A stretch of 64,000 nt of DNA from Streptomyces sp. NBC_01260 (GTDB taxonomy: Bacteria; Actinomycetota; Actinomycetes; Streptomycetales; Streptomycetaceae): NCBI RefSeq assembly GCF_036226405.1, contig NZ_CP108464.1, positions 372,001 to 436,000 of the forward strand. The letters run 5' to 3'. A model generated the notes under the pieces. The model made no database searches and was not told the origin of the DNA. It was given only the letters and a program-made list of their open reading frames with translations. Positions 19,081 through 57,007 of the stretch are shown here, in pieces. How positions within the stretch are numbered: the stretch's first letter is position 1; each line of letters opens with the position of its first letter. The translations under genes were made by a program, and so were the position numbers.

Positions 19081-20526
19081 ATGGAGGCAATGGAATGGTT
19101 CACCGCAGACGGGTACTGGCTCAGCCGGCTGATCTTTCAGCGAGCGCTCGCTGCCATCTATCTGACCGCCTTCCTCACCGCCGCGCTCCAGTTCCGGGCG
19201 CTGATCGGTGAACGCGGCATGCTGCCCGCTCCCGGACTCCTGCGGCGCACGGACTGGCGCACCGCTCCCGGGCTCTTCCGCCTCCACTACTCCGACCGCT
19301 TCTTCGCCCTGGTCGCGTGGACCGGCTGTGCGCTCTCCGTCGCGCTGATCGCCGGCCTGGACAGTCATCTGCCCCTGTGGGCGGCGATGCTGCTGTGGGC
19401 CCTGCCCTGGGCGCTGTACCTGTCGATCGTCCAGGTCGGCGACACCTGGTACGGCTTCGGCTGGGAGTCGCTGCTGCTGGAGACCGGATTCCTCGCCGTC
19501 TTCCTCGGCAACGCGGGCACCGCCCCGCCGGTGCTGGTGCTGTGGCTGCTGCGCTGGGTGCTGTTCCGGGTGGAGTTCGGCGCCGGGCTGATCAAGATCC
19601 GCGGCGACGCGTGCTGGCGCAGGCTGACGTGTTTGTACTTCCACCACGAGACCCAGCCGATGCCCGGCCCGCTGAGCTGGTTCTTCCACCGGCTGCCCCG
19701 GCCCCTGCACCGGGCCGAGGTGGCGGCCAACCATGTGACCCAGCTCCTGGTCCCGGTGCTGCTCTTCACCCCGCAGCCGGTGGCGGGCGCGGCGGCGGCC
19801 CTGATGGTCCTGACCCAGCTGTGGCTGGTGCTGTCGGGGAACTTCGCGTGGCTCAACTGGCTGACGATCGCGCTCGCCCTGTCGGCCGTCGACTGGTCCC
19901 CGGTCGCCGAGCCGCCCGCGCAGTCCGCCGCGCCCCTCTGGTACGAGGTGGTGGTCATCGCCGTCACCGCCCTGGTGCTGGCTCTGAGCTACCGCCCGGC
20001 CCGCAATCTGGTCTCGCGCCGCCAGGTGATGAACCGCTCGTTCGACCCTCTGCACCTGGTCAATACGTACGGCGCGTTCGGCAGCATCAGCCGGGTCCGG
20101 CTGGAGGTGGTGGTCGAGGGCACGGATGAGCGGGTCGTGCATCCGGGCACGGTCTGGCGGGAGTACGGGTTCCGCGGGAAGCCGGGAGATCCGCGGCGGC
20201 TGCCGCGCCAGTTCGCCCCGTACCACCTGCGGCTCGACTGGATGATGTGGTTCGCCGCTCTCTCACCCGCCTATGCCCGCCCCTGGTTCGGCCCGTTCGT
20301 GCAGCGGCTGCTGGAGAACGACCGGGACACGCTGCGGCTGCTGCGGCACAACCCGTTCCCCGGCGCCCCGCCCGCGCACGTCCGCGCCAGGGTGTACCGC
20401 TACCGGTACACGACCTGGCGCGAACTGCGGGCCACCGGGCGCTGGTGGCACCGCACCTACGTGCGGGACTTCATGCGGCCGGTGCCGCCGGGTCCCGCAC
20501 CGGTCAGCCCGACCAGGCGATCTTGA
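19081..20526 (+). CDS. Lipase maturation factor-family membrane protein
   Basis: A 481-residue membrane protein of the LMF family, with multiple helices over residues 15-310 and a large soluble C-terminal part. Typical marks are FRVEFGAGLIKIRGD, CLYFHHETQPMPGPLSWFFHRLP, the QVMNRSFDPLHLVNTYGAFGSI segment and LDWMMWFAA. In animals LMF1 helps lipases fold; the bacterial role is unknown. It lies 28 bases after the DUF1990 gene, so it is probably the third gene of the TetR-box operon. Its 3' end overlaps the convergent fucosidase gene by 23 bases. Confidence 0.88.
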   Translation: MEAMEWFTADGYWLSRLIFQRALAAIYLTAFLTAALQFRALIGERGMLPAPGLLRRTDWRTAPGLFRLHYSDRFFALVAWTGCALSVALIAGLDSHLPLWAAMLLWALPWALYLSIVQVGDTWYGFGWESLLLETGFLAVFLGNAGTAPPVLVLWLLRWVLFRVEFGAGLIKIRGDACWRRLTCLYFHHETQPMPGPLSWFFHRLPRPLHRAEVAANHVTQLLVPVLLFTPQPVAGAAAALMVLTQLWLVLSGNFAWLNWLTIALALSAVDWSPVAEPPAQSAAPLWYEVVVIAVTALVLALSYRPARNLVSRRQVMNRSFDPLHLVNTYGAFGSISRVRLEVVVEGTDERVVHPGTVWREYGFRGKPGDPRRLPRQFAPYHLRLDWMMWFAALSPAYARPWFGPFVQRLLENDRDTLRLLRHNPFPGAPPAHVRARVYRYRYTTWRELRATGRWWHRTYVRDFMRPVPPGPAPVSPTRRS

Positions 20527-23001: not shown

Positions 23002-24351
23002 CTACTTCTCGTGCTCGCGGGCCCGCAGCAGGGTGCTGATCTGCTTGACGAGTTCGTCGTCGCTGGTCACGGGCTTGCCGGAGACCAGCGCACCGAGGCG
23101 CTCGGCGGTCTGGAAGTCGTACGCCCGCTCTGCCTCCGCGCCGGGAACGCTGTCGTACTCCTCCTTGGCACGGAACCCGACGGTCAGCTCCACGGCCTTG
23201 GCGATGAGCCAGGTCAGGATGAACGAGAAGGCGATCACGGCGACGATGGCGACAAGCTGCTTGCCCAGCAGCCCCCAGCCGCCTCCGTAGAACAGTCCCT
23301 TCTTGCCGCTGATGCGTGCGGTGGCGAACAGGCCGACCATGATCAGGCCGATCAGCCCGCCGACACCGTGCACGCCCACCACGTCGAGGGTGTCGTCCAC
23401 GTTGAAACGGAACTTCAGCGTGATCGCGAAGGCGCAGACCGCGCCGACGACGAGGCCGGTGATGACCGCGCCGAGCGTGTTGATCTCGCCGCAGGCCGGG
23501 GTGATGGCGACCATGCCCGCGACGGCGGACGAGACGACCCCCATCGTGGTGACTCTGCCGGTGCGCCACTTCTCCACCAGCGGCCAGGTGACCATCGCGC
23601 CCGCGGCCCCGAGCTGAGTGTTGATGAAGGCCGCGGCTGCGGTGCCCTGGTCGCTCAGTGCCGAACCGGAGTTGAAGCCGAACCAGCCGAACCAGAGCAG
23701 CCCGACCCCGATGACCACAAGGGGAATGTTGTTGGGGCGCTCCTCACGGCGGGCGAAGTCGCGCGGTGCCCGCAGGACGAGCGCGACGGCGAGGCCCGCG
23801 ACACCGGAGTTGAGCTCCACCGGGAGACCGCCGGCGAAGTCGAGGGCGCCGAGGTGCCTGACGATCCAGCCGTCCGAGTCGAACACCCAGTGCGCGAGGG
23901 GGATGTAGACGATGAGCAGCCACAGCACGACGAAGACGAGCCAGCCCTTCATCGTGGCGCGGTCGGCGATCGAACCGCTGATCAGCGCCACCGTGATAAT
24001 GGCGAAGCCCATCTGGAAGGTGCTGTAGACGTAGGTGGGGATCGATCCGGTCAGCGTGGTCAGGTCGATGCCGCGCATGAACACATGGTTGAGATTGCCG
24101 ATGACTCCGGCTCCTCCGACATCCGGTCCGAACGCGAGCGTGTATCCGATGACCCACCAGACGAGGGTGCCGAACGCGAGCGCGGCGAAGCTCATCTTGA
24201 TCATCATCAACACGTGTTTGGTGCGCACCATGCCGCCGTAGAAGAACGCGAGACCGGGCGTCATCAGCAGCACCATGGCGGTGGAGGCGAGCAGCCAGGC
24301 GGTGTCACCGGAGTCGTACGCGGGCGGCATCGGCGCGGGAGCGGTGTTCAT
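23002..24351 (-). CDS. amt: Ammonium transporter (Amt/MEP family)
   Basis: A 449-residue channel with about 11 transmembrane helices. It has the AmtB-like N-terminal DTAWLLASTAMVLLMTPGLAFFYGGMVR, the GLLWFGWFGFNSGSAL signature and the pore-lining twin His motifs in DVVGVHGVGG. The soluble C-tail (about 400-449) is longer than the minimum and might bind a PII protein. It lies 36 bases after ureD at the end of the urea operon. In this setting it may recapture ammonium that leaks out after urea hydrolysis. Confidence 0.93.
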   Translation of the reverse strand: MNTAPAPMPPAYDSGDTAWLLASTAMVLLMTPGLAFFYGGMVRTKHVLMMIKMSFAALAFGTLVWWVIGYTLAFGPDVGGAGVIGNLNHVFMRGIDLTTLTGSIPTYVYSTFQMGFAIITVALISGSIADRATMKGWLVFVVLWLLIVYIPLAHWVFDSDGWIVRHLGALDFAGGLPVELNSGVAGLAVALVLRAPRDFARREERPNNIPLVVIGVGLLWFGWFGFNSGSALSDQGTAAAAFINTQLGAAGAMVTWPLVEKWRTGRVTTMGVVSSAVAGMVAITPACGEINTLGAVITGLVVGAVCAFAITLKFRFNVDDTLDVVGVHGVGGLIGLIMVGLFATARISGKKGLFYGGGWGLLGKQLVAIVAVIAFSFILTWLIAKAVELTVGFRAKEEYDSVPGAEAERAYDFQTAERLGALVSGKPVTSDDELVKQISTLLRAREHEK

Positions 24352-24387: not shown

Positions 24388-25347
24388 CTACGGCTTGCGC
24401 AGATCGGGGGCGGGATGGCCGGTGAGCAGCCGGCGCACGGACTGCCAGGCCGCCTGATGGGCCGCGGCGACCCGGATCGGGCTGTCGTCCAGCAGCCGCA
24501 TCCAGGCGCCGCAGTCCCGGGGCAGGACGCTCACGCCGTACAGGACGCCGAGTGGGGCCAGCGCCTCGTGCAGGGTGTCGGCGAGTTCGGCGGCCGGGGT
24601 GCGGTCGGTCACGACGAAGAGCGAGGCGACATGGTCGTGCCCGGCGAACACACCGGGTCCCAGGTCTCCCCCGCCGTCCGGCCCCGGGGCGAGGCGCAGG
24701 GTGTCGACGGCAAGCAGGGTGCCGTCGGGCCTGCGGATACACAGGTCGGTGGCGAGCACCCGGTAGGCGTGGCGTTCACCGCGGGCGAGCCGTCCGGCCG
24801 TGAGGGTGTCGCCGACGACGACGGTGGCGCCGCTTGCGACCGTGACCTCGGTGCGCTGGTAGAAACGCGCGTCCTTGAACGGGATCAGCGGGTCCGGCAG
24901 GTACTCGACGTAGCTCCCGGCCTCCGCCGTCAGGTGCACCCGCTGGCTCGCGTAGTCGTGCTCCATGCGGAAGATCTTGGTGGCGGCCTGGGTGGTCAGA
25001 TGGACCTGGGTGTCCGGTCCGCAGCGGAAGTCCATCCGGTAGCGGTCGGCCTGGGCGACGCCGCCGCCGGTCGCCATCAGGTAGACGTAGCTCATGCCGG
25101 GCAGCGCGGGGTCGATCCACAGCGGCCGCATGATCTGCAGCGGTGTCTTCTGGTAGCGCTCGACGAGTTCGGTACGCCCGCCCCGCACGGCGAAGGCCAG
25201 GTCGAGGATGCCGACCTTGGCCGGGGACCCGGGCGCGAGCGTGTCGGGCACGGAGGCCAGGGCCGCCACGTCCGGGGGGACCCGGACCGCCGTGTAGTAC
25301 TCCTCGGCGAGCCGGTCGGCCGGGGGCCGGTGCGGGGCGAGCGTCAT
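24388..25347 (-). CDS. ureD: Urease accessory protein UreD
   Basis: A 319-residue UreD/UreH-family scaffold that binds apo-urease and recruits UreF and UreG for nickel loading. Family marks include QIMRPLWIDPALPGMSYVYLMATGGGVAQADRY, TTQAATKIFRM and LPDPLIPFKDARFYQRT. The long first 40 residues are less conserved. It begins one base after the ureG stop. Confidence 0.92.
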   Translation of the reverse strand: MTLAPHRPPADRLAEEYYTAVRVPPDVAALASVPDTLAPGSPAKVGILDLAFAVRGGRTELVERYQKTPLQIMRPLWIDPALPGMSYVYLMATGGGVAQADRYRMDFRCGPDTQVHLTTQAATKIFRMEHDYASQRVHLTAEAGSYVEYLPDPLIPFKDARFYQRTEVTVASGATVVVGDTLTAGRLARGERHAYRVLATDLCIRRPDGTLLAVDTLRLAPGPDGGGDLGPGVFAGHDHVASLFVVTDRTPAAELADTLHEALAPLGVLYGVSVLPRDCGAWMRLLDDSPIRVAAAHQAAWQSVRRLLTGHPAPDLRKP

Positions 25348-25348
25348 C

Positions 25349-25969
25349 TCAGATCAGCACCTTGCGGCGCGATTCGAGGTAGACCGCGATCTCGTCGATG
25401 CCGACGCCGGTCAGGCAGTCGGTGAGGACGACGGGGCGGTTGTCCCGGACCCGGTGGGCGTCGGACTCCATGACGTTGATGTCCGTGCGGACGTACTGCG
25501 CGATATCGATCTTGTTGATGACGAGGAGATCGGACTCGGTGATGCCGGGGCCGCGCTTGCGGGGCATCTTCTCGCCCTCCGCGGTGTCCAGCACGAAGAG
25601 GAAGAGGTCCACGAGGGCCGGGCTGAAGGTCAGGGTGAGGTTGTCGCCACCGGACTCGTAGAGCAGTGTGTCCGTGTCCGGGAAGCGCTCCAGCATCTCG
25701 GCGCCGGCCGCCAGGTTCATCGTGGGGTCGTCGCGTACGGCGGTGTGCGGGCAGGCGCCTGTCTCGACCCCGACTACGCGCTCCGGTTCGAGGACTCCGG
25801 CCAGGGTGCGGCGGATGTGCTGGGCGTCCTCCTGGGTGTAGATGTCGTTGGTGATGACGGAGGGGCGGTGTCCGCGCTCGATCAGAATCGGCACCAGCGC
25901 CTCGATGAGCGCGGTCTTGCCGGATCCGACCGGTCCGCCGACGCCGACCCGCAGTACGTTGTCGTCCAT
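25349..25969 (-). CDS. ureG: Urease accessory GTPase UreG
   Basis: A 206-residue SIMIBI-class GTPase that drives nickel insertion into urease. The P-loop is GGPVGSGKTALIEAL near the N-terminus. ETGACPHTAVRDD carries the CPH nickel site at the dimer interface, followed by ESGGDNL and the base-recognition NKIDIAQYV. It lacks the N-terminal His stretch seen in some UreGs. It lies 30 bases after ureF in the operon. Confidence 0.96.
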   Translation of the reverse strand: MDDNVLRVGVGGPVGSGKTALIEALVPILIERGHRPSVITNDIYTQEDAQHIRRTLAGVLEPERVVGVETGACPHTAVRDDPTMNLAAGAEMLERFPDTDTLLYESGGDNLTLTFSPALVDLFLFVLDTAEGEKMPRKRGPGITESDLLVINKIDIAQYVRTDINVMESDAHRVRDNRPVVLTDCLTGVGIDEIAVYLESRRKVLI

Positions 25970-25999: not shown

Positions 26000-26746
26000 T
26001 CAGCTGGCGAAGAGCCGGGCCTCGGCGCGTTCATGACGGCCCGACATGATGTCCGAGGCGAAGACGGTGGCGCCGACGTCATCGAGTTCGCGCCGCAGCG
26101 CCGCCTCGACGGCCTCTTCGATGACGGGTGCGGCACCCCGCAGGAGAGTCTGCGCCGAGCGGTGGTCGGTCAGCCGGAGCCGCAGGGCCGCACCCGCGAA
26201 GCTGACGCAGAAGGCGAACAGGTCCGAGGCGACGGCCTGCCGGAGCGGGACCCCGGTCGCGGCGTAGATGACACCTGCGGCCACCGCCTGGGTACCGGGG
26301 GCCTCCCGGCGTACCACGCGGTCGAAGTAGTCGCCGATCTCCGGGCGGTCGAAGACCTCGTGGCCCAGGTCGAGCAGCTGCCGGCCGGTCCGGGTGGCGG
26401 CCTGGCGCATCTCGCGGCCCAGCTTGGTCGCGAAGAGGTGCTCGTCGATCCGGACGACGGCCGCCGGGTCGCCCGCCGCGGTCGCGCGGTGGGCGAGGGC
26501 GAGCGCCGTGGCATCGGCGGGACCGACGCCGTGCAGCAGCAGGTCCCGGAGCAGCAGCGGCACGGCGGCGGGGCCGACGGCCCCGGCCTGGGCGAAGCCC
26601 TCCAGGCTGTGCGACAGCGTGTAGAAGCCGCTCGGGAACGCGGAGTCGGTCAGCTGGAGGCTGACCAGCAGCGGTCCCAGATCCGTGCCGGCCGCGGTCA
26701 TGGCCGGCACGGACTCGCCCGCGGTGTCGCCCTCGTTGCGGTACAC
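26000..26746 (-). CDS. ureF: Urease accessory protein UreF
   Basis: An all-helical protein of up to 248 residues that acts as a GTPase regulator in the UreDFG complex. Family marks are SLQLTDSAFPSGFYTLSHSLEGF and the later Arg/Ala-rich helices. Start is uncertain: GTG at 26746 sits 4 bases after the ureC stop, while the ATG at 26701 gives a 233-residue protein closer to the usual length. Neither has a strong ribosome site, so coupling to ureC translation is likely. Confidence 0.92.
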   Translation of the reverse strand: MYRNEGDTAGESVPAMTAAGTDLGPLLVSLQLTDSAFPSGFYTLSHSLEGFAQAGAVGPAAVPLLLRDLLLHGVGPADATALALAHRATAAGDPAAVVRIDEHLFATKLGREMRQAATRTGRQLLDLGHEVFDRPEIGDYFDRVVRREAPGTQAVAAGVIYAATGVPLRQAVASDLFAFCVSFAGAALRLRLTDHRSAQTLLRGAAPVIEEAVEAALRRELDDVGATVFASDIMSGRHERAEARLFAS

Positions 26747-26750
26747 CGGC

Positions 26751-28475
26751 CTAGACCAGGAAGTACAGGTGATTGAGGGGCAGCTTCTCGGCCGGGTCGA
26801 TGGTGGCGACCTTGCCGTTGAGCGTGACCTTGAACGTCTCCGGGTCGACCTGGATGTCCGGCAGGGCGTCGTTGCGGACCATGTTGTGCTTGCCGATGGT
26901 GCGGGTGCGGCTCACCGGCAGGATCATGCGGTCCAGGCCCAGCTCGGCCGGGACCCCGGCAGCGATGCCGGCCTGGGACATGAAGGTGGCATGCGTCGTC
27001 GGCAGGGCCTTGCCGTACTGCCCGAACATCGGGCGGTAGGTGACGGGCTGCGGGGTCGGCAGTGAGGCGTTGGGGTCGCCCATCTGCGCCCACGAGATGA
27101 TGCCGCCCTTGATCACCATCTTCGGCTTGGCACCGAAGGAGTGGATCGGCCAGAGCACGATGTCGGCGAGCTTCCCCTTCTCGATCGAACCCACGTGATC
27201 CGAGATACCGGTGGCGATGGCGGGGTTGATGGTGACCTTCGCCAGGTAGCGCAGCACCCGCTGGTTGTCGTTGCGAGCGGAGTCGCCCTCCATCGTGCCG
27301 AGCTTGTCCTTGCAGTGGTGGGCGATCTGGAAGGTCCGGGTGACGGACTCCCCGACCCGGCCCATCGCCTGGGAGTCGGAGGAGATCATGCTGATCACAC
27401 CGAGGTCGTGCAGGACCGACTCGGCGGCGATCGTCTCGGCCCGGACCCGGCTGTCGGCGAAGGAGACGTCCTCGGGGATGTCGTGGCTGAGGTGGTGACA
27501 GACCATGACCATGTCGAGCAGCTCGTCCACCGAGTTCTTGGTGTAAGGCAGCGTCGGGTTGGTGGAGGACGGCAGCACGTTCGGCTCGCCGGCCACCCGC
27601 ATGATGTCAGGGGCGTGCCCGCCGCCCGCGCCCTCGCTGTGGAAGGTGTGGATGGTGCGGCCGTCGAACGCGGAGCGGGTGTCTTCGAAGTAGCCGCTCT
27701 CGTTGAGGCTGTCGGTGTGGATGGCCACCTGGACGTCGTACTGGTCGGCTACGTTCAACGCGTTGTCGATCACGGCGGGGGTGGCGCCCCAGTCCTCGTG
27801 GACCTTCAGGGCGCAGGCACCGGCGACGATCTGCTCGTTGAGCGCCTCGGGCAGGCTGCCGTTGCCCTTGCCCATGATGCCGAGGTTGACCGGGAAGGCC
27901 TCGGCCGCCTGCAGGAACCGGGCGATGTTGTACGGTCCCGGCGTGCAGGTGGTGCCGTTCGTGCCGTCGCTCGGCCCGGTACCACCGCCGATGAGCGTGG
28001 TGATGCCGTTGGTGAGTGCCTGCTCGGCCTGTTGCGGTGCGATCAGGTGGACGTGGCTGTCGATCGCTCCCGCGGTGGCGATGAGGTGTTCACCGGCGAT
28101 GGCCTCGGTGCCCGCCCCGATGACCAGGTTCGGGTGCACGTTGTTCTGGGTCTGTGGATTGCCCGACTTGCCGATGCCGGCGATGAAGCCGTCCTTGATG
28201 CCGATGTCGCACTTGACGACACCGACGATGGGGTCGATGAGCACGACGTTGGTGATGACGGTGTCGAGAGCGCCCTGGGCGGCGGTGACCTGCGGATCGG
28301 AGCCCATGCCGTCACGCATGGTCTTGCCGCCGCCGTAGAGGATCTCGTCCCCGTACTGGCCCTCGCTGAAGTCCTTCTCGACCTCGACGACGAGGTTGGT
28401 GTCGGCGAGGTGGAAGCGGTCGCCGACCGTCGGGCCGAACATGTCGGTGTACTGCTTGCGGGGCAGGATGGGCAT
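26751..28475 (-). CDS. ureC: Urease subunit alpha (catalytic)
   Basis: A 574-residue nickel amidohydrolase that splits urea into ammonia and carbamate. Nickel ligands and flap are visible: DSHVHL, the carbamylated Lys in ALKVHEDWG (about 217-225), [30 protein letters not shown] segment ([13 protein letters not shown]) and the mobile flap [13 protein letters not shown] with its Cys. Length is normal. The start overlaps the ureB stop as ATGA. Confidence 0.97.
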
Positions 28476-28960
28476 CAGCGCGAACCCTTCTTCTTTTCCT
28501 TGGTGGCGGGCTTGGTGGGCTTGGCGGCGGGCTTGGCTGCCTTGGCGGCAGGCTTGGTGGCCTTGGCACTCTTGGCGGCGGGGGTGTTCTGCGCGCCCTG
28601 GAAGCCCTGCTCAATGGCCTTGCGGACGGCTTCGACGCGTGCGGGGTGGGAGGCGAGGCTGCCGTTGAGCAGCCCGCTGAAGCCGACCAGCCGACCGGTT
28701 CCGCCGTACGCGCACAGTTCGACCTCGCGCGAGCCGCCGGGCTCGAAGCGCACGGAGGTGCCAGCGGCGATGTTGAGGTGCATGCCGAGCGTCTCCTGGC
28801 GGTCGAACAGCAGCGCCGAGTTGACCTCGAAGAAGTGGTAGTGGGAGCCGATCTGTACCGCACGGTCGCCGGTGTTGCTCACGGTGACCTTCAGCGTGCG
28901 GCGGCCCGCGTTGATCTCGATGGGGTCCTTGCCGTAAATGTACTTCTGACGGAACGTCAT
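28475..28960 (-). CDS. ureB: Urease subunit beta with Lys/Ala/Pro-rich C-terminal tail
   Basis: The first 105-123 residues are a normal UreB fold: [33 protein letters not shown] and [17 protein letters not shown]. The usual subunit is about 100-125 residues. Here it continues for about 38 more (124-161) in a low-complexity tail of Ala, Pro and 11 Lys, resembling the basic repeats of HBHA or histone-H1-like proteins. Its ATG overlaps the chelatase stop and its stop overlaps the ureC start. The tail may be surface exposed on the urease particle; its job is unknown. Confidence 0.95.
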
Positions 28961-29817
28961 GCGATGCTCCTGATGACTTGGCCCGCTCCATCGGCGGACG
29001 GGTGCTGATGCGGGTGCGTATGGCCTGGGCCGTGCTCGTGCTGGTGGCCAGGACCGTGGCCGTGGTCGTGGCCCTCGCCCGGTGGGTGGGCGTGGGAGTA
29101 GCCGTGGTTCTCGGCCGCGGTCAGCCCGGGCGCGATGCCGTCGTCGCCGTGCTCGCGGCGGCGCCGCCGGGCGTCGGCCACCCTCTCGGCCAGCACCCGT
29201 CGCAGCGCGGACGCGGACACGAGCGGACCCGCGCGGTCCACCGGAAGCCCGGCCGCACCGCCCACCTCGGGCGCCTCCGGCGGCGCGAACCCGGCCGACA
29301 GCAGCGTCACGCGCTCCGCGCCGAGCAGCCGGCAGCGCCGGACGCCCTCGGCCGGGTCCGGGTCCCCGCCGGTGAACGCGACCTCGACCAGGGCGTGCCG
29401 CCCGTAGCGGCGCACGAGTGCGGCGATCCGGTACAGCTCCGCGTCCTCGAACGGGTCGCCGGACGGGGCCGTGACCAGCAGGGCGGACGCCTCCGGCACG
29501 CGTCCCGCCGCCGCGCGCAGCCAGCCGACGAGGTGCTGGGCGGTGCCGAACGGCTCGGCGAGCACGGTCGCCGCCCGTTCGCCGCCGGGAACGGCACGCA
29601 GGGTCCGGGCGGTGTCCGCGACGAGTCCGGGGTCCCGGCCGAGCGTCATCGGGACGACCACGGTCTCCTCGCCCCGGCGCAGGTTCGCGCAGACGCTCCG
29701 GAACAGCTCGCGCCCGCTCGGCACGACGCTCACCCCGGGGTCCACGAGTCCCTCCAGCGCACGCCCGTACGCCGCTTCGTGGCCGCACACGGCGATGACC
29801 GCGCAGCGCTCGGCCAC
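28957..29817 (-). CDS. CbiX/SirB-like chelatase with His-rich tail, inside the urease operon
   Basis: A 286-residue protein related to sirohydrochlorin/cobalt chelatases. The first half-domain starts [20 protein letters not shown], with the metal-binding-type His in CGHE, then [11 protein letters not shown]. The second half starts [12 protein letters not shown]. Residues 238-272 hold 13 His in 35 residues, as HGH, HDH and HEH units. The start GTG at 29817 is 5 bases after the ureA stop; its stop overlaps the ureB ATG. The operon has no ureE, whose product also often ends in a His tail. I infer a nickel storage or delivery role; a corrinoid role cannot be excluded. Confidence 0.75.
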
Positions 29818-29822
29818 CGGGG

Positions 29823-30128
29823 TCAGCCCCCGATCGGGTCGTGGCAGGACACCAGCTTCGTACCGTCCACGAAGGACGCCTCGACCTGGAGCAGGCCGAG
29901 CATCTCCCGTACGCCGGGCATGGTGTCCGGCTCGCCCACGACTTGGCGGCCCAGTTCCATGCAGTCCGCGACGCTCTTGCCGTCGCGCGCGGCTTCGAGG
30001 ATCGCCTCGGTGATCAGCGCGACCGACTCGCTGTAGTTGAGCTTGAGGCCGCGTCCCTGGCGTTTGCGGGCCAGGTCGGCCACCACGTACACCAGCAGCT
30101 TGTCGATCTCGCGGGGGGCGAGGTTCAT
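29823..30128 (-). CDS. ureA: Urease subunit gamma
   Basis: A 101-residue subunit of normal length, starting [23 protein letters not shown]. It contains [33 protein letters not shown] and ends at VHDP-like SCHDPIGG. It is the first urease structural gene after the urea channel. Unusually, ureB does not follow directly; the chelatase-like gene lies between. Confidence 0.95.
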
Positions 30129-30188: not shown

Positions 30189-31151
30189 TCAGCCGCTCCG
30201 GCGAAGGCGGGGCAGCAGCGGCACGGCGGCCATCAGCGCCCAGGTGGTGAGAATGAAGGGCCAGGTGAAGGTGTGGCCGCCGAAGGGCTTGAAGAAGGAC
30301 GTCAGCGACGCCGTCAGTCCGGTGCTGGCCGCGGCGCCGAACAGCGCGTACACACCGGTCCACACCGTGTTCGCCATGAAGACCGCGCCGATGGCGATGG
30401 CCACGAGCACCGCGTTGTATCCGTAGATGCCGTTGGCGATCAGCGCCGTCGGTGCGCCCAGCAGCCACGCGGCGACGATGCCGATCACGCTGCCGGCCGC
30501 CGCGTAGAGCACGACGCGCAGACCGGCCAGGGCGAGGCCGACGAGCATGATCAGTCCGACGTACCAGCTGTCGATCAGGAAGACCTGCGAGACGTTGTTG
30601 AAGAACGCGTGCCACAGCACGCTCCAGGACATCGCGGTATCGCCGGTGGTGGTGCTGGCCACGGAGGCCGGGGCGCCGTGCCAGACCCGCTCGAACGAGG
30701 GGGCGCCCACCACCATCACTCCGGAGACCAGACAGAAGGGCGCGGTCAGCGGGGTGAGCCCGTAGGGGGTGAGGAAGGTGCCCAGGGCGGCCATCAGGAG
30801 GGTGCACATGATGGCGCCGACGACGGTCAGCACATAGGTGGCGAGATGGTTCCCCAGCGAGGAGACGAGGGCGATGCCCGTCAGGCAGCCCGCATATCCC
30901 TGGAGGCCGAGCGCGATCCCCGACCGGTCGACGGCGAGGGCGTAGGCGGTCGCGGTGGCGAGCAGGGTGCCGAGCGTGGCGAAGAGGCCGTTCTGCCAGC
31001 CCGACACCCACAGCGCGACGAGGATCGCCACTCCGGTCAGCAGGCCGGCCTGGAGGTCGACCTGTCCGAACCCCCGCAGGGAGGCCAGAACGTACGCGGA
31101 CGGCTGACGGCGCTCCATCCGCCGGACGATTTCCGGCTCGGCGATGGGCAA
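30189..31151 (-). CDS. Urea transporter/channel (UT family)
   Basis: A 320-residue membrane protein with about ten helices arranged as two related halves. The UT signature segments are visible: NGLFATLGTLLATATAYAL, the AGCLTGIALVSSLGNHL region and LTAPFCLVSGVMV in the first half, and ANGIYGYNAVLVAIAIGAVF in the second. It should let urea enter down its gradient. It is the first gene of the leftward urea operon, 60 bases before ureA. Confidence 0.88.
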   Translation of the reverse strand: MPIAEPEIVRRMERRQPSAYVLASLRGFGQVDLQAGLLTGVAILVALWVSGWQNGLFATLGTLLATATAYALAVDRSGIALGLQGYAGCLTGIALVSSLGNHLATYVLTVVGAIMCTLLMAALGTFLTPYGLTPLTAPFCLVSGVMVVGAPSFERVWHGAPASVASTTTGDTAMSWSVLWHAFFNNVSQVFLIDSWYVGLIMLVGLALAGLRVVLYAAAGSVIGIVAAWLLGAPTALIANGIYGYNAVLVAIAIGAVFMANTVWTGVYALFGAAASTGLTASLTSFFKPFGGHTFTWPFILTTWALMAAVPLLPRLRRSG

Positions 31152-55648: not shown

Positions 55649-57007
55649 TCAGCCCGGCGCGTCCGAGGCAGTCCGCGGGCGCTCCCTCTTCCGCACGGCG
55701 TCCGCGGCGGTCCGGAACCCCGGCGCCGGGTTGCTGGGCGGGGGCTCGGGGGCCGGGCGGCTGCCGCCCCTGGCGAGGAAGTCGGCCAGCGGGAGCGTCG
55801 CGGCGCCGACCGTGACCGCGTCGGGGCCCAGCCGGCCCATCTCGATGGTGGTACGGGCCGCGGCGTGCCGGAGCGCGTACTCCTGCGCGTAGCGGCGGAT
55901 GTCGGGCAGCAGGTGCGGTCCGATCAGCAGGCCCGCCCAACCCCCGAGCAGAATGCGTTCGGGCAGGAAGAGGTTGATCAGGTCGCCGAGGGCCGCGCCC
56001 AGGCATTCGGCCGTCTCGTCGAGCAGCGAGACCGCCAGTGGGTCGGGCTCACCGCCGGGACCGGGGTAGGCCGCGGCCAGCAGCGCGGCGAGCGCGGTCT
56101 CGTCGTCGGCGTCGGCGTCGAGCGGGCCTCCCGCCTCGTGCCAGCGCTCGCGCATCGCCTCGGCGCCCGCGTACGCCTCCAGGCAGCCGATCGAGCCGCA
56201 CCGGCAGCGGCGTCCGCGCAGCTGGACAGTGGTGTGGCCCCATTCGAGGGCCATGCTGCTGCGGTCCTCGTCGAGCAGGTCGCCGTGGTTCACACAGGCG
56301 CCGACGCCGGAGCCGATGAGCGCGATGGCCGAGGCTCCCGCGCCGCGGCCGCCGCCGAACCACATCTCGGCCTGGCCGAGCGTCTTGGCACCGTTGTCGA
56401 TGAAGAACGGCACCTCGGGCGGGACCCGGACGGCGTCGCGGAGCAGCTGCTCGAAGGGGACGGCGCTCCAGTCGATCGTCTGGCCGTGGACGACGGAGCC
56501 CACGTCGCCGATGGCGCCGTCCGGGGCGTCCCGCTCGATGATCCCCGGAACGCCGATCCCGATGCCGAGCAGCCGGCGCGGGTCGGCCCCGGCGTCCCGC
56601 AGCACATCGGCGACCCCGCTGCGGACATGGCCGACGATACGGCTGACGTCGTAGCCGTGCTGGGCCAGCAGCCTTTCGGTGCGGGCGAGTTCGGTGAGGG
56701 AGAGGTCGAAGAGCTCCACCCTGATCCTGGTCTCGCCGATGTCGATGCCGATGAGGAGCCCGCCCCCGGGCGCGACGCGCAGCAGCGTACGGGGACGGCC
56801 GCCGTCGGAGTCGACGACACCGGCCTCCTCCAGGAGGCTCTCGGCGGCGAGTTCCGCGACGACGTTGCTGATGGAACCTGAACTCAGCCCCGTGGCGGGA
56901 CCGAGCTCCTGGCGGCTCAGCGGGCCGTCGAAATACAACCGTTGCAATACCCTCGCCCGGTTGCCCCGTCGCAGGTCACGCACGGTCCGTCTGTTGCGCT
57001 CAGCCAT
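55649..57007 (-). CDS. ROK-family transcriptional regulator
   Basis: A 452-residue NagC/Mlc-type protein. The winged helix is RVLQRLYFDGPLSRQELGPATGLSSGSISNVVAEL. The sugar-kinase-like domain has GIDIGETRIRV and a glycine-rich GIGIGVPG. Zinc-motif cysteines are in CRCGSIGCLE, and LEWGHTTV supplies the zinc His region. The C-terminal 40 residues are a Pro/Arg-rich extension. It is divergent from a sugar ABC operon, with an AT-rich palindrome between them, so it very likely controls that operon. Confidence 0.92.
   Translation of the reverse strand: MAERNRRTVRDLRRGNRARVLQRLYFDGPLSRQELGPATGLSSGSISNVVAELAAESLLEEAGVVDSDGGRPRTLLRVAPGGGLLIGIDIGETRIRVELFDLSLTELARTERLLAQHGYDVSRIVGHVRSGVADVLRDAGADPRRLLGIGIGVPGIIERDAPDGAIGDVGSVVHGQTIDWSAVPFEQLLRDAVRVPPEVPFFIDNGAKTLGQAEMWFGGGRGAGASAIALIGSGVGACVNHGDLLDEDRSSMALEWGHTTVQLRGRRCRCGSIGCLEAYAGAEAMRERWHEAGGPLDADADDETALAALLAAAYPGPGGEPDPLAVSLLDETAECLGAALGDLINLFLPERILLGGWAGLLIGPHLLPDIRRYAQEYALRHAAARTTIEMGRLGPDAVTVGAATLPLADFLARGGSRPAPEPPPSNPAPGFRTAADAVRKRERPRTASDAPG

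Follow-up and report, generated by a model that had tools for sequence, protein, structure and literature searches.

A chelatase-like protein with a histidine-rich tail, encoded between ureA and ureB, as a putative nickel store or donor for urease in Streptomyces sp. NBC_01260

Introduction

Ureases that lack UreE are common, and to our knowledge it is not settled how nickel is supplied to UreG in these systems. Here we analyzed a gene located between ureA and ureB in a urease operon of Streptomyces sp. NBC_01260, on a stretch of 64,000 nucleotides (assembly GCF_036226405.1, contig NZ_CP108464.1, positions 372,001 to 436,000) which is called the window below and to which all positions refer unless a genome and contig are given. 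A preliminary description of the window, made from its letters alone, had read the product of this gene, here called X, as a CbiX-like chelatase that was recruited as nickel store or donor for urease and thereby replaces UreE.

Results and Discussion

The operon and the distribution of X

X is encoded within a block of nine genes in the order urea transporter, ureA, X, ureB, ureC, ureF, ureG, ureD and amt (ammonium transporter), with intergenic gaps of at most 60 nucleotides (nt), and all eight neighbours of X score over their own Pfam cut-offs (Table 1). The preliminary description had given the position of X, the gap of 5 nt to ureA, the ATGA overlap of 4 nt with ureB and the number of histidines in the C-terminal tail, all of which we could confirm. 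It had also ordered the genes from ureA to ureD correctly but had missed that the operon is longer, including the two transporter genes, which are part of the block conserved in most relatives. No Rfam match to a nickel or cobalt riboswitch was found at the gathering threshold between positions 20000 and 34000, and a search for a Nur-type box gave one match with three mismatches at 56942, fewer than the 3.1 expected by chance.

Table 1: Features of the urease operon, with positions in the window.
Feature	Position	Strand	Description
X, chelatase-like protein	28957..29817	minus	open reading frame of 286 aa, GTG start, no internal stop; SirB/CbiK-like predicted fold; hhalign against actinobacterial CbiX-type chelatases 99.1%
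His13 of the GHE motif of X	29779..29781	minus	aligned by hhalign with the first metal-site His of CbiX/SirB (His10 in SirB); H in 64/65 rows
PMTLGRDP motif of X, residues 56–63	29629..29652	minus	occupies the stretch leading to the second metal-site His (GHAK) in chelatases
His95 of X	29533..29535	minus	in urease-linked X, missing from stand-alone relatives
His-rich tail of X, residues 238–272	29002..29106	minus	13 His of 35; low-confidence model from about residue 241
urea transporter	30189..31151	minus	PF03253, 268.2 bits
ureA (urease gamma)	29823..30128	minus	PF00547, 136.6 bits
ureB (urease beta)	28475..28960	minus	PF00699, 132.8 bits; Lys-rich C-terminal extension, about 28478–28600
ureC (urease alpha)	26751..28475	minus	over Pfam cut-off
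ureF	26000..26746	minus	PF01730, 116.2 bits
ureG	25349..25969	minus	PF02492 (CobW/HypB/UreG domain), 105.7 bits; start MDDNVLRVG, without His-rich tail
ureD	24388..25347	minus	PF01774, 182.5 bits
amt (ammonium transporter)	23002..24351	minus	PF00909, 367.9 bits

The slot of X is constant. When no operon is counted twice, both flanking genes can be read in 44 X operons, and in all 44 of these X is found between ureA and ureB and on their strand. For three more X operons ureB alone can be read, and for one more just a fragment of ureA. Such operons occur in Streptomyces, Speluncibacter and three further actinobacterial families. A scan of genome contigs gave 26 loci. Streptomyces and Speluncibacter account for 25 of these, in all of which X adjoins urease genes on the readable sides; the 26th, from a haloarchaeon, matches the His-rich tail only. 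From a draw of 150 Streptomyces genomes, 17 genomes (18 loci) have a UreG of the X-type lineage, and X is present in 13 of these, missing from G075, G077 and G023 and not assessable in G189 and G151. In a draw of 345 genomes of the class, four have such a UreG (at least 77% identity), namely the own genome, G192, G825 and G837. In each of these X occupies the slot described above, as it does in G093 and G096 of family f3. Loci were dropped or could not be assessed where the contig ends beside ureB (L110, L274), where the operon is decayed (L112) or where the contig holds no ureG (L054, L055, L072, L073), and duplicates were removed (L052, L111, L075, L276, L279, L283).

Stand-alone X-like genes away from urease were found at no fewer than 11 loci of family f3. 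Those at L040–L050 encode proteins without a long His tail and without His95, and several of the stand-alone loci are located near genes for trehalose synthesis (PF00982, PF02358), FUSC/ArAE proteins or sugar transporters; these neighbourhoods, checked by Pfam, gave no pointer to function. Database searches returned 375 homologues of X at E values up to 0.001, and among the matches listed (120 of 375) many are named "sirohydrochlorin chelatase" or "cobalamin biosynthesis protein CbiX".

Fold and core residues of X

The predicted model of X matches the two-domain fold of class II chelatases, with SirB as the best match. By Pfam the label CbiX-like is weak, X reaching 15.9 bits against CbiX (PF01903) with its cut-off of 22 and relatives scoring 23.8 (L039 and L041), 21.4 (L035) or not at all (L070), yet it is upheld by the comparison of profiles and of folds. 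Together with the 44 operons sharing one slot, the predicted fold bears out the earlier claim that a protein of the chelatase family was recruited to the urease operon.

X differs from the CbiX/SirB chelatases (B. subtilis SirB, 5ZT8; CbiK, 2XVX and 1QGO) not only in falling below the Pfam cut-off and in being encoded with urease but also in its core. In the alignment, His76 of SirB, the second metal-site His, corresponds to residue 64 of X, which is not a His in any of the 65 aligned rows, and the CxxC motif present in seven of eight related chelatases is missing from 64 of the 65. H74 is invariant in the eight chelatases of alignment A3. The structures 6M25 and 6M2A we take to be CfbA, another class II chelatase. 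For the metal-site Glu (Glu43 of SirB) the corresponding stretch of X could not be aligned reliably by hhalign; this Glu is described as not conserved in CfbA (PMC11301274). Other core residues are invariant in all 65 rows, including G12, E14, V54–P56, G60, R61, R101 and C162, and all 48 urease-linked X proteins that could be read at this position have His95, as against none of the 11 stand-alone ones, four truncated rows being unreadable there.

Elsewhere in the own genome there is another CbiX, in which two domains exceed the cut-off (G000:C1:1378848-1379531), as well as a third, weaker CbiX match at C1:6726837. X is therefore not needed as housekeeping chelatase, and that it might be the only sirohydrochlorin chelatase of the cell was ruled out. 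Kinship with UreE was also ruled out, as the Pfam scan of X gave only CbiX at E values up to 1. A search of PDB sequences with X alone returned only chance-level matches, and the top profile match, a de novo triosephosphate isomerase (TIM) barrel, was dismissed as a repeat effect.

The histidine-rich tail

With a His background of 2.4% (57 of 2377 residues, counted over the products of the eight flanking urease and transport genes), the 13-His stretch has a binomial probability of 8e-13, or about 2e-6 after allowing for some 2.8 million windows. The predicted local distance difference test (pLDDT) score of the model is below 50 over residues 241–244, 249–255 and 257–286, and from about residue 241 onward the tail is probably disordered. 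Wherever the tail could be delimited, urease-linked X proteins have at least 7 tail His, from 7 in L267 to more than 30, with the exception of L278, while all 11 stand-alone homologues have 0–4; examples are L051 with 16, L061 with 18 and L043 with 3. The pattern used to set the tail boundary found none in 7 of the 65 rows, and the P rows of the tail table were counted without a check of gene context. In L278 (G881:C1:563000-579000) the X frame continues for hundreds of residues past the tail, a frameshift that may be real or a sequence error. Some actinobacterial CbiX-like chelatases (L018, L019, L133 and L134) possess both the CxxC motif and a His-rich tail and are likely the parent type of X.

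Exchange with the UreG extension

The presence of X follows the His content of UreG. None of the 48 X operons encodes a UreG with a His-rich tail, the protein having at most one His at either end, and in nine of nine sister operons without X UreG carries 5–6 His in a short N-terminal extension, so that within this urease lineage X is present where the UreG tail is missing and absent where the tail is present. Both arrangements coexist in G1057, where L266 lacks X and has a tailed UreG and L280 has X and a tailless UreG, in addition to a decayed X operon. Within the class II urease of Streptomyces, UreG has an N-terminal extension with 2–7 His in all 11 stretches read, and X is present in none of them; ureA, ureB and ureC are visible in ten of these, and L122 shows no ureABC. 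Three more distant operons without X (L187–L189) encode a UreG without His at either end, and all three carry ureE, with UreE_N over the cut-off in each. Thus X trades places with the His-rich UreG tail, and UreE takes that place in L187–L189.

For these counts the UreG starts were chosen by their Shine-Dalgarno match. An in-frame upstream start in L053 would add four His and has no Shine-Dalgarno sequence; UreG of L185 has one His near each end, one of them under an alternative start, and that of L066 has one at the C-terminus. The decayed operon of G1057 (L273, G1057:C1:2020000-2036000), which has kept X, ureF, ureG, ureD, amt and a ureA fragment and has lost ureB and ureC, was counted for UreG and left out of the UreC tree. 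Another remnant of this operon type, L112 (G151:C1:6599000-6617000), consists of partial ureF and ureG together with ureD and amt and without ureABC. In L199, L202 and L203 from other actinobacteria the His-rich stretch of UreG, with 7–12 His, is found at the C-terminus instead of the N-terminus.

Searches for UreE

That the operon has no ureE was borne out, and neither UreE_C nor UreE_N matched anywhere in the own genome, so that the ureE elsewhere in the genome which the preliminary description had named as counter-evidence was not found. UreE_C also matched none of the 150 Streptomyces genomes, a result of a model with limited reach, since of three genomes with ureE in the operon it matched one (G277) and missed two (G804 and G780). 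Further searches with the same limited reach gave 0 matches of 21 in one set and were negative for 29 of 30 in another. A local UreE model built from L187–L189 found none in the other operon stretches. UreE_N was searched over the whole of the own genome, and for the loci of the contig scan the UreE search covered the genome of L070. In the same kind of Streptomyces draw, UreG was matched with an E value of 1e-50 or lower in 129 of 150 genomes, and a UreG of the X-type lineage occurs in just 17 of the 150. As Streptomyces genomes generally have no ureE that can be detected, whether or not they carry X, X is not a simple replacement of UreE. The earlier reading is hence supported in part: its claim that UreE is replaced does not hold as worded, but the presence of X does track how each operon handles His-rich binding.

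A putative nickel donor for UreG

We propose that X derives from a chelatase and serves the urease of its own operon alone as a nickel store or donor, handing nickel to UreG, a reading drawn from sequence comparison and the predicted model to which we assign a probability of roughly 0.6. X would then descend from a class II chelatase of the CbiX/SirB type, would serve urease as an accessory protein and has probably lost tetrapyrrole metallation. It would collect nickel via its His-rich, probably disordered tail, with the remodelled core site (H13 and H95) perhaps also holding nickel, and would pass it on to the UreG of the same operon, itself without a His-rich tail, thereby filling the role that the UreG tail may have in sister ureases and UreE elsewhere. 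Nickel as the metal, the tail as its binding part and UreG as the receiver are what we infer here. A more far-reaching version, in which X represents an undescribed kind of urease accessory protein with the chelatase fold turned to loading UreG, a new core site made of H13 and the urease-specific H95, the His tail and possibly docking by a Lys-rich tail of UreB, is tentative and the odds are somewhat against it.

Several alternatives were weighed against this proposal. X could store nickel as a buffer or sink, as His-rich Helicobacter proteins might do, thereby shielding the cell while urease is being made, and would then not hand nickel to UreG; the long and variable tail, with low confidence in the model, is what one would expect of a store, but a plain store needs no strongly conserved core and would leave the mutual exclusion with the UreG tail unexplained, which makes this unlikely in our view. 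The same exclusion is left unexplained if X takes part in urease assembly without carrying metal, as scaffold for the urease-UreDFG complex or in carbamylation, with the His tail as decoration. The tight coupling with ureA and ureB and the retention of X in L278, where most of the tail is lost, would fit such a function. Of 32 X operons inspected, 29 encode a UreB with a Lys-rich tail (5–20 Lys), a possible docking site, but this tail is nearly absent in the X operons L039, L070 and L220 (1–2 Lys), and we regard an assembly role free of metal as quite improbable. That X is still a tetrapyrrole chelatase, inserting nickel or cobalt into sirohydrochlorin and placed in the operon for cofactor supply, we consider very improbable, given the replaced metal-site His, the missing CxxC motif and the separate CbiX of the own genome. 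Urease itself uses no tetrapyrrole, which also speaks against a cofactor role.

A number of observations weigh against the proposed donor function. L200 and four f3 operons (L221, L222, L223 and L226) have a single-His UreG, no X in the operon and no UreE_C match in the genome, and the local UreE model finds no UreE in these five operon stretches either; a His-rich partner is hence not always needed. In L278 the X frame exits the tail after 5 His although UreG is tailless. As His-rich tails are also present on genuine actinobacterial CbiX-type proteins, the tail of X may have been inherited and may predate the link to urease rather than being gained for it. The lineage of ureases with X is a UreC clade with 100/100 support in which the nine operons without X form one clade (100/100), nested by the best tree among the X operons, and a single X clade was not rejected (p-AU 0.17; L192 and L193 with their short ureC were left out of the first UreC tree). 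The pattern of 48 and nine operons therefore amounts to a single change within the lineage, with no more than one further change at its base, and although it holds over a long divergence it does not represent dozens of independent trials. Moreover, ureC DNA shows near-copies in both groups, L262 and L264 among the nine operons without X and the window and L074 among the 48 with X. X also changes faster than UreC, with a mean distance of 0.53 versus 0.18. In favour of the proposal, the X and UreC distances correlate over 32 operons with r 0.87, compared with 0.95 for UreC and UreD.

Relation to known systems

Like UreE, X is encoded in a urease operon, has a His-rich C-terminus and stands where UreG lacks a His tail, but it matches neither UreE_N nor UreE_C and its model matches chelatases. 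The His-rich UreG extension of plants, fungi and many actinobacterial operons would have the same role, the stretch being located on a separate protein in the X operons. Nickel-binding His-rich proteins of Helicobacter, presumably Hpn and Hpn-2, offer a further comparison. For gastric Helicobacter such proteins are described as small (PMC4671568), and X differs from them by its full chelatase-fold core. A similar role has been suggested for the fumigatus UreG extension (PMC10100864). In the open full-text literature, subscription papers lying outside this scope, the titles and abstract beginnings among the matches listed gave no pointer to urease operons containing a chelatase-like gene, and we provisionally regard this arrangement as unreported.

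The X operons offer a clean comparison of closely related ureases which differ in whether the His-rich part resides on UreG or on X, once within the same genome (G1057). If the proposal is correct, a tetrapyrrole-chelatase fold would have been reused as a protein-to-protein metal donor, and the chelatase and CbiX names on many database records would need correction. Should X indeed load UreG through its chelatase fold, the nickel-binding tail would be an interchangeable module, placed on UreE, on either end of UreG or on X.

The UreB extension and further urease genes

In the window, UreB has a Lys-rich C-terminal extension with 12 Lys (28478–28600), and such an extension could serve as docking tail. 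The end of UreB has 0–1 Lys in the three sister operons without X and the ten class II operons examined. The own genome (9.28 Mb, 3 contigs) holds three UreG loci, those in the window, L116 and L195, each adjoining ureA, ureB and ureC. In the third urease gene set, L195 (G000:C1:1268000-1286000), short stretches of His are found at the N- and the C-terminus of UreG.
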